DNA of 5,180 nt from a bacterium (GTDB lineage: Bacteria > SM23-31 > JAUVVT01), in the NCBI GenBank assembly GCA_030616165.1, contig JAUWXV010000261.1, positions 1 through 5,180 of the forward strand, given 5' to 3'. The position numbers were made by a program, and so were the translations under genes. The notes beneath the pieces were generated by a model. It was not told where the DNA came from. It saw only the letters and a list, made by a program, of their open reading frames with translations, and did not search any database. The first letter of the stretch is position 1. Each line of letters opens with the position of its first letter. This document shows positions 447-4,238 of the stretch, piece by piece.

Positions 447-2687
447 ATGATAGGCAAAACCATCTCTCATTACAAAATCCTCTTTAAACTTGGTGAAGGG
501 GGGATGGGTGTAGTGTATAAGGCGGAGGATACAAAGCTTGACAGGTTGGTTGCGTTAAAGTTTTTGCCGAGTCATCTTATAGATGATGAGAAGGCTCTAA
601 ATAGATTACTAAAAGAAGCAAAAGCTGCTTCAAAGATAAATCATCCAAATGTGTGTACAATTTATGCGATTGAAGAACATGAAGATACACATTTTATTGT
701 TATGGAATATGTTGATGGTATGACATTAAGACAGAAAATAAAAGAGAGGGCGAATAGCCATTCGCCCCTACGGGTAGATGATGCAATAGCTTATTCAATT
801 CAAATTTGTAAGGCACTCAAAGCTGCTCATGATAAGGGTATAATTCACCGCGATATTAAGTCCGAAAACATAATGATAAATTTGGAAAACATGGCCAAAG
901 TTATGGATTTTGGTCTTGCAAAACTAAAGGATGAGGCAGGATTAACAAAGACTGGCACAGCAGGGACAATTGCCTATATGGCACCTGAACAAATCAAGGG
1001 AGAGGATATTGATAATAGAGTAGATATCTGGGCTTTCGGTGTAGTTCTATTTGAAATGCTTACGAGGGAATTTCCATTTGAAGGTCAATATGAATCGGCA
1101 ATGTCTTATTCGATTGTTAATACCGAACCTAAATCTATCACTGACATCATTCCTGATGTCCCAATTAATATAGAGCAGTTAATATATAAAGCGTTAGAAA
1201 AAGACAAAGAAAGACGATATCAAGAAGTAAATGAACTAATTGGAGATTTAAAGAAGATACCTTCTAAAGTAACCATTTTAGAAAAGCAGGAAAAGTCTAT
1301 TGTTGTTCTTCCGTTTGTGAATATGAGTCCGGATCCTGAGCAGGAATATTTTAGTGATGGATTAACAGAGGAAATTATTACTGACCTATCACATATTCAT
1401 ACTCTTAGTGTAATTTCCAGAAGTTCTGCGATGACATTTAAGGGAACAAAGAAGAAAATCAAGGAGATTGCAAGAGAAGTAAATGTACATTATGTTCTTG
1501 AAGGGAGCGTGAGAAAAGCTGGTAACAAATTACGGATAACTGCACAGTTAATAGATGCGATAAATGATAAACATTTATGGGCGGAAAAATACAGCGGAAC
1601 TCTTGATGATGTGTTTGACATTCAGGAGAGGGTATCGAGTTCAATTGTGGACGCTCTTAAACTAAAACTAAATCCTGAAGAAGAGAAAAAAATAGCCAAA
1701 CGTCCAATTGATAATGTGCAAGCCTATGAATGCTATCTGCAGGCCAAACATGAATACTGGCGCTTTACGGCAGAAGGAGCAAAACGAGCACTCCAACACC
1801 TTCAAGAAGCCTTGGGAATAGTTGGAGATAATGTATTTATCTATGCAGGAATGGCAGAGGCATATTTTGTACTCTCTCACACTAAGGGCGAGGAATTTGT
1901 AAAACATTTAGATAAAGTAGAAGAATGTGTGAATAAGATTTTTGAATTGGAGTCTGAATCATCGTATGGTTATTGTTTCTTAGGATTAGTAAAATGGAAA
2001 GAGCCCAAACCTCAAGAAGCGATAAAGTTTCTAAAACGAGCATGTGATATTAATCCTGATGATACTGAAACTTTGATATGGTTGAGTTTTACTGCCGCTG
2101 AAGTCGGAAAACTCTCTATTGCTGAACCATGTATCAGAAGATTATTAGAAATTGACCCTTTATCTCCTATGAGTCACTTTTGTATTGGATGGTTCCATTT
2201 AATGGAAGGACATTTGGAGCCAGTGCTGGAAGCGTTTAAAAAAGCTCATCAAATGGTCCCTGAAAGTCCACTCTTTGGATTTAAATATGCCCGTGCTCTT
2301 GCGCTTAATCAGCAGTTTGAGGAAGCTTACTCGCTTTTTGACCTAATAATAAAAAATTCCCCAGATGATGTTTTTGCCTGGTTGGGTCCATTCTTTAAAT
2401 ATGCCCTACAGGGTGAGAAAAATAAAGCGTTGAAATCCGTCACTGAAGATATTAAGACGGCAGCACGATTGGATGAGACTGTATCATGGTACATGGCAGA
2501 GTGCTATGCATTAATAGATGAAAAAGAAGAAGCAATTGATTGGCTTGAAAATGCTGTTTGGCGGGGAGTTTTAAACTACTCCCTTCTTTCTGAATACGAC
2601 CCCTTCCTCGAAAACATCCGCGGAGAAGAACGCTTTAAAAAGCTCATGGAAAGAGTCAAGTATGAGTGGGAGAATTTTGAGGTATGA
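447..2687 (+). CDS. Serine/threonine protein kinase with TolB/FlgO-like domain and TPR region
   Basis: A 746-aa signalling kinase of the PknB (Hanks) type. The kinase domain (about 9-270) has all key residues: glycine loop GEGGMG (16-21), Lys38, helix-C Glu57, HRD with catalytic Asp136 and Asn141, DFG Asp154, APE 179-181 and the closing Arg257. Residues about 283-408 (SIVVLPFVNMSPDPEQEYF onward) match the TolB-like/FlgO-type domain often seen behind kinases and adenylate cyclases. Residues about 424-715 are helical TPR repeats, probably for protein binding. The linker between kinase and TolB domain is only about 12 residues and no transmembrane helix is seen, so the protein is probably cytoplasmic, whereas many relatives have a membrane span there. 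Residues 101-109 (RANSHSPLR), between kinase strand 5 and helix E, are encoded by a 28-bp palindrome. The start is fixed by a good ribosome site and an in-frame stop just upstream. Substrates are unknown. Confidence 0.95.
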   Translation: MIGKTISHYKILFKLGEGGMGVVYKAEDTKLDRLVALKFLPSHLIDDEKALNRLLKEAKAASKINHPNVCTIYAIEEHEDTHFIVMEYVDGMTLRQKIKERANSHSPLRVDDAIAYSIQICKALKAAHDKGIIHRDIKSENIMINLENMAKVMDFGLAKLKDEAGLTKTGTAGTIAYMAPEQIKGEDIDNRVDIWAFGVVLFEMLTREFPFEGQYESAMSYSIVNTEPKSITDIIPDVPINIEQLIYKALEKDKERRYQEVNELIGDLKKIPSKVTILEKQEKSIVVLPFVNMSPDPEQEYFSDGLTEEIITDLSHIHTLSVISRSSAMTFKGTKKKIKEIAREVNVHYVLEGSVRKAGNKLRITAQLIDAINDKHLWAEKYSGTLDDVFDIQERVSSSIVDALKLKLNPEEEKKIAKRPIDNVQAYECYLQAKHEYWRFTAEGAKRALQHLQEALGIVGDNVFIYAGMAEAYFVLSHTKGEEFVKHLDKVEECVNKIFELESESSYGYCFLGLVKWKEPKPQEAIKFLKRACDINPDDTETLIWLSFTAAEVGKLSIAEPCIRRLLEIDPLSPMSHFCIGWFHLMEGHLEPVLEAFKKAHQMVPESPLFGFKYARALALNQQFEEAYSLFDLIIKNSPDDVFAWLGPFFKYALQGEKNKALKSVTEDIKTAARLDETVSWYMAECYALIDEKEEAIDWLENAVWRGVLNYSLLSEYDPFLENIRGEERFKKLMERVKYEWENFEV
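744..771. repeat. 28-bp palindrome inside the kinase coding sequence
   Basis: Arms 744-755 and 760-771 surround the loop AGCC. The inner eight bases GGGCGAAT pair perfectly with ATTCGCCC, and 9 of 12 arm positions pair overall. It is the same family as the non-coding copies and closest to 3958-3985, with the same loop. It encodes about ERANSHSPLR at kinase residues 100-109, where most PknB kinases have a short loop. The frame stays open and all catalytic motifs follow, so the insertion is tolerated. Confidence 0.85.
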
Positions 2688-2777: not shown

Positions 2778-3719
2778 ATGATTCCATTTCGACAAACAAG
2801 ATTGGTAATATTTCTATTCACAATGTTATATCTTGTTGTTCTTTTAAAATGTTCTTCAGGGCAGCGAGTAGACCCAAGTTATCACCCAAGACTGCCAAAT
2901 CCTGCAACTTTTCAAAAAAATAATGGACCCATTGTATTAATAGATGAAAGCCACAACAATATCGTTGCTACAAAAGGTCGCTATACTCCTTTTATTGAAG
3001 TACTTCGTTTGGATGGTTATATAATTAAACCTCTCCGGTCGCCTTTTACAGTTGAAATTCTTGAAAATGGTGATATCCTTGTTATAGGCAATGCATTGCA
3101 TGATAGGAATGTACAAGACTGGTCTCTCCCAACGCCTTCAGCATTTACAGATAAAGAAATCACAGAAGTCTGTCAATGGATAAAGAAAGGTGGTTCACTT
3201 TTGCTTCTTGCAGATCATATGCCTTTACCTGGTGCTGCAAAAAACTTAGCACAAGCTCTGGGTTTTGAATTTACAAACAGTTTTGTTTTTAACCCAGAAA
3301 CATGGGATCCAACAATCTTTCGCATCTCAGATAGTACATTAGTGGATCATCCCATTGTACGAGGAAGATCAGAAAAAGAATCTATTGACTCTATAGCAAG
3401 TTTTTTCGGTCAAGCTTTTAGGTCAAATGAGGCTCAACCGTTGCTAGTGATCGGACCTTCCAATGTAGCTTATCTGCCAACCAAAGCATGGGAATTTAAC
3501 GAAGAAACGCCAAGTTTTTCAGCTGAAGGATGGCTTCAAGGAGCAGTAAGAAAATTTGGAAAAGGACGTATTGCTGTATTTGGTGAAGCTACTATGTTTT
3601 CAGCACAGATTTCTCAATCAAGTAAAGAAAAGTTAGGAATGAATACACCAGAGGGAAAAGAAAACCTCCAGTTCCTTCTCAATATTTTTCACTGGCTATC
3701 AGGACTTATAGAGCATTAG
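2778..3719 (+). CDS. Exported DUF4350-like (glutamine-amidotransferase-like fold) protein
   Basis: A 313-aa protein of unknown role. The N-terminus has basic residues (Arg5, Arg8), a hydrophobic stretch about 9-23 and then KCSSG, so it is exported and possibly lipid-anchored at Cys25, although Lys at -1 is poor for a lipobox. The mature part resembles the DUF4350/GldG-type family with an amidotransferase-like fold: VLIDESHNN (53-61), RYTPF and DGY (68-81), DILVIGNA (99-106), a GGSLLLLADHMPLPGAA block (138-154), then GKGRIAVFGEATMFSAQ (261-277) and a C-terminal NLQFLLNIFHWL (296-307). DHMP and FGEA look like the conserved pocket, but no reaction is known. A TGA sits directly before the ATG, so this start is the earliest possible, and it keeps the signal peptide intact. 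No clear Shine-Dalgarno site is present. It lies 90 bp after the kinase on the same strand, so cotranscription is possible but unproven. The family name is recalled from motif pattern only. Confidence 0.85.
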   Translation: MIPFRQTRLVIFLFTMLYLVVLLKCSSGQRVDPSYHPRLPNPATFQKNNGPIVLIDESHNNIVATKGRYTPFIEVLRLDGYIIKPLRSPFTVEILENGDILVIGNALHDRNVQDWSLPTPSAFTDKEITEVCQWIKKGGSLLLLADHMPLPGAAKNLAQALGFEFTNSFVFNPETWDPTIFRISDSTLVDHPIVRGRSEKESIDSIASFFGQAFRSNEAQPLLVIGPSNVAYLPTKAWEFNEETPSFSAEGWLQGAVRKFGKGRIAVFGEATMFSAQISQSSKEKLGMNTPEGKENLQFLLNIFHWLSGLIEH

Positions 3720-3830
3720 TTTTCTCTGTCATCTTTGTTGATGGTAAAGATAATTTAGATAAATTGAAATAAATATTTAATACATGTTTTAATTTTATAC
3801 GTAATCTCGGTTTTATTCATGCGTTTTTAA
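3720..3830. other. Short AT-rich spacer
   Basis: I see no gene and no convincing terminator here. ATCTTT and AAAGAT around 3732-3752 could form a weak stem, but no T-run follows. Confidence 0.4.
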
Positions 3831-3926
3831 GAACACGACCCCTTCCTCGAAAACATCCGTGGTGAGGAACGCTTCAAAAAGCTCATGGAAAGAGTCGAAT
3901 ATGAATGGGAGCATTTTGAGGTATAA
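3831..3926 (+). pseudogene. 3'-end relic of a second kinase/TPR gene
   Basis: Ninety-six bases encode EHDPFLENIRGEERFKKL and on to WEHFEV followed by TAA, matching the last 31 residues of the intact kinase (gene positions 2592-2687). By my count 86 of 96 bases agree. Of the ten differences, six fall at third codon positions, and only three residues change (Tyr/His, Lys/Glu, Asn/His). That pattern points to a separate paralogue that diverged under selection rather than a recent copy of the neighbour. An in-frame TAA (3828-3830) stands directly before it and homology ends there, so everything upstream of the tail has been lost. A RAYT relic follows within 8 bp. Confidence 0.9.
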
Positions 3927-3933
3927 TAATAAT

Positions 3934-4035
3934 TGGCAAAACAATATGATATTACATGTAAGGGCGAACAGCCGTTCGCCCCTACGAAACAAAATTTATG
4001 AATGTATCTTTAAAATTTATTGGAATGAGAATTGA
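3934..4035 (+). pseudogene. RAYT C-terminal relic, copy C
   Basis: An open stretch starting WQNNMILHVRANSRSPLR and ending IYECIFKIYWNEN before TGA at 4033-4035. WQ..N corresponds to WQRNYYEH of copy A with a deletion, and NKIYECIFKIYWNE corresponds to ENLICEYIINNPIKWD. At the DNA level the bases after the palindrome (AATTTATGAATGTATC) align with copy A (AATTTGCGAATATATC). A 28-bp palindrome occupies the same relative place as the 73-bp element in copy A. The likeness is moderate and decayed, so the assignment is less certain than for copies A and B. Confidence 0.5.
3958..3985. repeat. 28-bp palindrome in RAYT relic C
   Basis: Arms 3958-3969 (GTAAGGGCGAAC) and 3974-3985 (GTTCGCCCCTAC) pair at 11 of 12 positions around the loop AGCC. 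It is read in the relic as VRANSRSPLR, the same phase as RANSHSPLR in the kinase. Compared with the kinase copy, the pair closing the loop is C-G here and T-A there, so the stem is kept by a double change. Confidence 0.9.
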
Positions 4036-4042
4036 TGATTAT

Positions 4043-4070
4043 ATGAGGGCGGTTGGCGAACCGCCCCTAC
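4043..4070. repeat. 28-bp palindrome, GGCGGT subtype, in RAYT relic B
   Basis: The inner arms GGGCGGTT (4047-4054) and AACCGCCC (4059-4066) are perfect around the loop GGCG, and the outer left arm has decayed. In the relic it reads EGGWRTAPT, the same phase as KGGSPTAPT in copy A, but at a different place in the transposase (before the RKPLGRLIG motif rather than after QIN). Confidence 0.85.
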
Positions 4071-4146
4071 AAACCGAAAACCATTAGGACGTTTAATTGG
4101 TGCATTTAAAACAGTTTCAAACAAACAAATCAATTTAATCAGAAAC

Positions 4147-4219
4147 GTAAGGGCGAAGCATTTAAATAAAGAGTTTTTGAAAAATTTACGGTATATGCAA
4201 AAAAATGCTTCGCCCCTAC
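4147..4219. repeat. 73-bp palindromic element, copy 2
   Basis: The 17-base arms at 4147-4163 and 4203-4219 match at 16 of 17 positions. Overall it has the same length and about 90% identity with 290-362, and differences are confined to the AT-rich middle. Unlike copy 1 it has no internal stop in the transposase frame. The left flank TCAGAAAC mirrors TCAGAAAT at copy 1, while the right flanks differ beyond CG. Confidence 0.9.
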
Positions 4220-4238
4220 GGATCCTGCGGTGGGGGGA

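Follow-up and report, generated by a model that had tools for sequence, protein, structure and literature searches.

The window, meaning the whole 5,180-nucleotide stretch analysed here, is contig C118 of a fragmented 3.74-Mb genome (a MAG, labelled G000). On its plus strand, positions 447–2687 hold an intact gene for a 746-aa Ser/Thr protein kinase with a PknB-like kinase domain at residues 9–259 (Pkinase match, E 1e-55), a FlgO-like region and TPR repeats; by sequence, 4eqm and other PknB-type kinases are the nearest solved structures. Purifying selection acts on the gene (dN/dS over the kinase domain of 0.083/0.72, or ~0.12, between C118 and its nearest paralogue, C38), the alignment shows its catalytic motifs preserved, and the kinase, judged from its sequence, probably remains functional. 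The 3′ end of the gene (2587–2692) is repeated as a fragment at 3826–3931, 1.2 kb downstream and 88% identical, with an unrelated ORF at 2778–3719 between the two copies.

Inside the uninterrupted kinase ORF, at 744–771, lies a GTAG-type REP whose tag is on the minus strand (768–771 reads CTAC on the plus strand). The coding strand, GAGAGGGCGAATAGCCATTCGCCCCTAC, specifies kinase residues 100–109, ERANSHSPLR, and the central claim of the sequence-only reading, that a palindrome is translated within an intact kinase gene and leaves its frame unbroken, is borne out by the open 447–2687 ORF. That reading had drawn the unit as 12+4+12 with an AGCC loop. The AGCC centre is there, flanked within the inner 20 nt by a perfect 8-bp stem (GGGCGAAT/ATTCGCCC), but just 9/12 arm positions pair, with three of the outer four unpaired and GAGA at the left end, where a symmetric unit would give GTAG. 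The RNA hairpin of this stretch has a folding energy of −13.7 kcal/mol (z −2.2). In the AlphaFold2 model (mean pLDDT 86.9), helix alphaD spans residues 94–103, a turn or loop 104–109 and helix alphaE 110–129; the REP peptide is thereby predicted to form the end of alphaD and the alphaD–alphaE loop, a flexible stretch on the surface of the C-lobe. Mean pLDDT over residues 101–110 is 68, versus ~91–95 in the flanking blocks.

RAYT relics and the REP family of the genome

Just upstream of the kinase, on the plus strand at ~239–464, is the C-terminal relic of a RAYT transposase (WQRNYYEHIVRN ... EYIINNPIKWDFDRENLK), detected by tblastn with the RAYT of contig C268 (E 3e-8) and followed in translation; a PF01797 profile search of C118 gave no match, the relic being seen by tblastn with the genome’s own RAYTs. 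A MITE-like element of 74 bp (290–363), bounded by terminal inverted repeats of 17 bp, splits the relic, and a plus-strand REP at about 222–250 reads KGGSPTAPT in the relic frame. A second RAYT fragment (GGWRTAPTN..LGRLIGAFKTVSNKQINLIRN), recognized by eye from translation at 4042–4145 on the plus strand, carries a REP at 4046–4070 and ends at a second MITE-like copy, 90% identical to the first (4146–4220). Both MITE-like copies have 17–18-bp inverted ends (GTAAGGGCGAAGCATTT), and each lies inside or adjoins a RAYT fragment. REPs thus adjoin the window’s RAYT relics and lie within their reading frame, and the earlier suggestion that units of the same design occur in transposase relics was right in substance, those at ~222–250 and 4046–4070 belonging to a related subfamily. 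Closest in sequence to the kinase unit is an intergenic REP of its own subfamily (GGGCGAACAGCCGTTCGCCC), on the minus strand at 3958–3986.

The kinase unit was also rightly suspected of being of a mobile type. Exact copies of its 20-nt core, GGGCGAATAGCCATTCGCCC, lie at two intergenic sites, C112:7312 and C277:9961, and identity to the C112 copy extends to ~31 nt, by reading, once flanks are included; in 200 shuffles of the window there were 0 matches, compared with three real ones. Across the genome the pattern TAGGGGCR(N6-16)YGCCC has 83 + 61 = 144 matches, and a reversed-pattern control has 0 + 1. Our census, made by pattern searches and from selected stretches of a fragmented MAG and covering REPs that match the GTAGGGGC type exactly or nearly so, puts the genome total at ~140 GTAG-type REPs. 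These share the consensus YGTAGGGGCR..YGCCC and fall into ~60 distinct cores with compensating stem changes, and the base 5′ of GTAG is a pyrimidine in 130/136 copies; RAYT is known to cleave at CT or CA beside GTAG-tagged hairpins (PMC8266576). The genome also holds seven Y1_Tnp (RAYT-type) genes or pieces, among them the C268 RAYT, which has REPs of the GAACGGCCGTTC subfamily both inside and beside it. Dispersed copies, compensating stems, a 5′ pyrimidine and RAYTs with adjoining REPs are marks of GTAG REPs, and with its terminal GTAG on a short palindrome, its dispersed copies and a RAYT with cognate REPs, the window unit belongs to the GTAG REPs with RAYTs as defined in PMC3733652.

This kinship separates the unit from the palindromic elements of Rickettsia (RPE), to which the sequence-only reading had likened it while assigning it to a different, RAYT-accompanied family. 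That placement is correct: both are short palindromes lying in frame in functional genes, but the Rickettsia repeats are CGTC-tagged and have no associated transposase (PMC3733652), whereas the window REPs bear GTAG, not CGTC, and accompany RAYTs. Described REP/RAYT (TnpA-REP) systems, REPINs and BIMEs share with it the GTAG tag, the short stem and the presence of REP-flanked RAYT genes in the genome; they are mostly extragenic, while the window REP is translated. It lies wholly within the ORF of a conserved protein that has homologues without the REP, and in this it resembles the GTAG palindromes translated in ORFs of conserved proteins reported by Di Nocera et al. 2013, who already listed in-frame intragenic GTAG REPs and, in recB of X. 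campestris and X. oryzae, different REPs occupying nearly the same site (PMC3733652). Their cases differ from ours in the hosts: here these are RAYT genes and a single Ser/Thr kinase family, of which the same genome has both occupied and empty paralogues.

Occupied and empty kinase loops

The close kinase family has eight members in the genome, the window kinase included, and the relatives searched were all from outside the genus of the window genome. The with-and-without comparison proposed with the original observation, applied to these paralogues and relatives, returned both loops with and loops without an insert. The alphaD–alphaE loop is occupied, at the same position and in the same phase, in C118 (KIKERANSHSPLRVDDAI), C38 (KTVGANGQSPFLSVDDAV) and C211 (KIVGAIRESSLPLKDVI); it is empty in C262 (KAKKEKLGIDEAV), in C261, C204a and C204b (KINSGPLKIKEAV) and in C32, G005, G001 and others. 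The loop DNA of C38 (GTAGGGGCGAATGGCCAATCGCCC) and C211 (GTAGGGGCGATTCGCGAATCATCCCTGC) consists of REPs with other centres. Stem types differ among the occupied genes (GAATAGCCATTC; GAATGGCCAATC; GATTCGCGAATC), as do the translated peptides (ERANSHSPLR, VGANGQSPFLS and VGAIRESSLP).

A count by hand between shared anchors gives 19 residues for the empty genes, 24 for C118 and C38, and 23 for C211, a net gain from the REP of 15 nt (C118, C38) or 12 nt (C211). The unit therefore adds five residues to the window kinase relative to C262 and the other empty kinases, not the nine first proposed. Because the net gain is smaller than the 28-nt unit, flanking host bases would have been replaced, probably ~13 of them at the junction, and for this reason the argument that a length of 1 mod 3 by itself points to an insertion rule fails. 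The REP’s CCCCTA end falls on the Pro-Leu of the SGPLK that is usual in the family.

A kinase tree from which the loop columns were left out pairs C118 with C38 (98/97) and places the empty C262 as sister to the pair (100/99), while C211 is sister (97/95) to the empty kinase of G005, from another family of the class. A single clade of the three occupied genes is rejected (AU p = 0.0014), and two changes are required. Against other copies, the C118 REP matches best in antisense (33/38 vs 24/38) and the C38 REP in sense (30/38 vs 25/38). Given the tree and these opposite orientations, two acquisitions are the simplest account and three are possible; the unlike stems likewise make repeated acquisition at one site likely. 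More than one acquisition at this loop is thus supported but not proven. The window core is identical to its intergenic copies although dS between C118 and C38 is 0.72, and the window REP may for this reason be younger than the C118–C38 split, or have been overwritten later.

We consider it very probable that a GTAG-type REP was inserted or copied in frame into the kinase loop and tolerated there, the same loop having been entered at least twice. The unit would be non-autonomous, one of the palindromes whose mobilisation is attributed to RAYT (TnpA-REP) single-strand transposases, and a RAYT is the presumed mobiliser here. Its arrival would have added a net ~15 nt and kept the frame open, and its translation as ERANSHSPLR in a length-variable, insertion-tolerant alphaD–alphaE loop would have left the kinase functional and the added peptide presumably neutral. 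Tolerance of the loop together with REP abundance probably explains why REPs entered it two or more times in this kinase family, and tolerated insertion of a mobile palindrome into a surface loop is the most likely mechanism.

A single gain in the ancestor of C118, C38, C262, C211 and G005, with losses in C262 and G005 and later conversion of the stems, would account for the agreement of the occupied genes in position and phase and for the pre-insert residues LRQK, common to all three occupied genes and replaced by LKAK in C262 and LRKK in G005; decay of a double-tagged perfect palindrome at one end in C118 and at the other in C38 would also explain their apparently opposite orientations. This history is rather unlikely, however, since it takes one gain and two losses where two gains suffice, the occupied genes do not form one clade by the AU test, and their stem types differ. 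Far less credible is ordinary variation of the alphaD–alphaE loop with a palindrome arising in the codons by chance, which we hold to be extremely improbable. Loop length does vary among such kinases (a second L016 kinase has a long loop), the ancestral loop already had Pro-Leu (SGPLK), which agrees with part of the REP, and S. aureus PknB has SHGPL there with no insert; yet the exact 20-nt core in intergenic REPs, the lack of any match in shuffles and the REPs of other types that two paralogues have at this position already contradict it.

REPs in other kinases and in RAYT genes

Kinase REPs are also found outside the loop. C211 (L156) has a second in-phase REP in the linker just before a predicted transmembrane stretch (GTAGGGGCAATCGGCCGATTGCCC), and a G001 kinase (C421, L264), from the same family as the window genome, has one at the equivalent linker, reading RAISQSPL; these pre-transmembrane linker REPs are in two different kinase paralogues of two genera. 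In a kinase of Acidobacteriota (Terriglobia), at L016:3480-3530, an inverted REP pair is translated just past a hydrophobic, transmembrane-like stretch (SVGAGLVPALGRPRGAPLPK). Two further kinases of the same family as the window kinase have a REP ~85–90 nt upstream of the start codon (G000 C261:24987-25006, L183; C204:2980-3002, L152). Among the REP-rich genomes, no REPs were found in the kinases examined from G014 and G029. The convincing translated-REP genes found in G000 are kinases of this family and RAYTs only. Other in-ORF matches were rejected, those at C108:4465, C214, C216 and C170 as chance, non-palindromic matches and others as lying in short spurious ORFs. By coding length alone, three kinase REP events have a probability of ~2.5e-7 (85% coding assumed).

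RAYT genes are the other hosts. In G000, the RAYTs C207, C268, C283, C302 and C316/C199 have in-frame GTAGGGGC REPs inside the gene, as do RAYTs of other genomes (L191, L192, L194, L202, L212, L272, L274, L275, L276, L280, L286, L287, L288, L292, L293 and L295). The site is mostly just after the HUH motif PNHxHGII, as in PNHLHGIIFIENPVGANGRSPL (G182), and a second REP-like stretch often follows further on. A term search of PMC2817692, PMC6006769 and section 16 of PMC3733652 found no mention of REPs translated inside RAYT genes, which may be new.

The reading phase, which had been suggested for tabulation, is the same (GTA GGG GCR) in all six kinase cases, which are few and not all independent. 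The 97 matches to HG..GTAGGGGCR, not all of them in RAYT genes, are spread over phases 0, 1 and 2 as 58, 30 and 9, respectively. With so few kinase cases and a 58/30/9 split at the RAYT HUH-like site, a strict phase rule is not upheld and a tendency remains.

These distributions bear on whether the REP has been put to use, its peptide in kinase regulation or its mRNA hairpin, within the coding region, in tuning translation. Repeated use of one loop, a stable RNA hairpin, a single phase in all six kinase cases and the confinement, in this genome, of convincing translated REPs outside RAYTs to this kinase family (the ~2.5e-7 above) speak for it; but the kinases examined from REP-rich G014 and G029 have none, the peptides differ among occupied genes, and a tolerant loop accounts for the site with no function, leaving such use decidedly improbable. 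A broader proposal, speculative and in our estimate unlikely, is that GTAGGGGC-type REPs are a recurrent protein-coding module, in frame (mostly in the VGA...SPL phase) after the RAYT HUH motif and repeatedly seeding, in Ser/Thr kinases across phyla (G000, G001 and Acidobacteriota L016), surface loops and linkers close to the membrane, with some kept for function. The tolerated, repeated entry of REPs into the kinase loop is the reading we prefer.

Translation of GTAG REPs has been described before (PMC3733652); what appears new is the recurrence of REPs at a single kinase loop and their in-frame position within RAYT genes of many bacteria. Both are worth following: the occupation, more than once in one genome, of the same kinase loop, and the presence of REPs in RAYT genes. 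The former provides a natural series in a single genome (empty, occupied, and occupied by a different REP) on which the costs or benefits of translating a REP can be tested directly. Despite the “extragenic” in their name, REPs get into coding sequence in uncultured lineages, and they may ride inside the genes of their own transposases, a point relevant to the persistence of REP populations.
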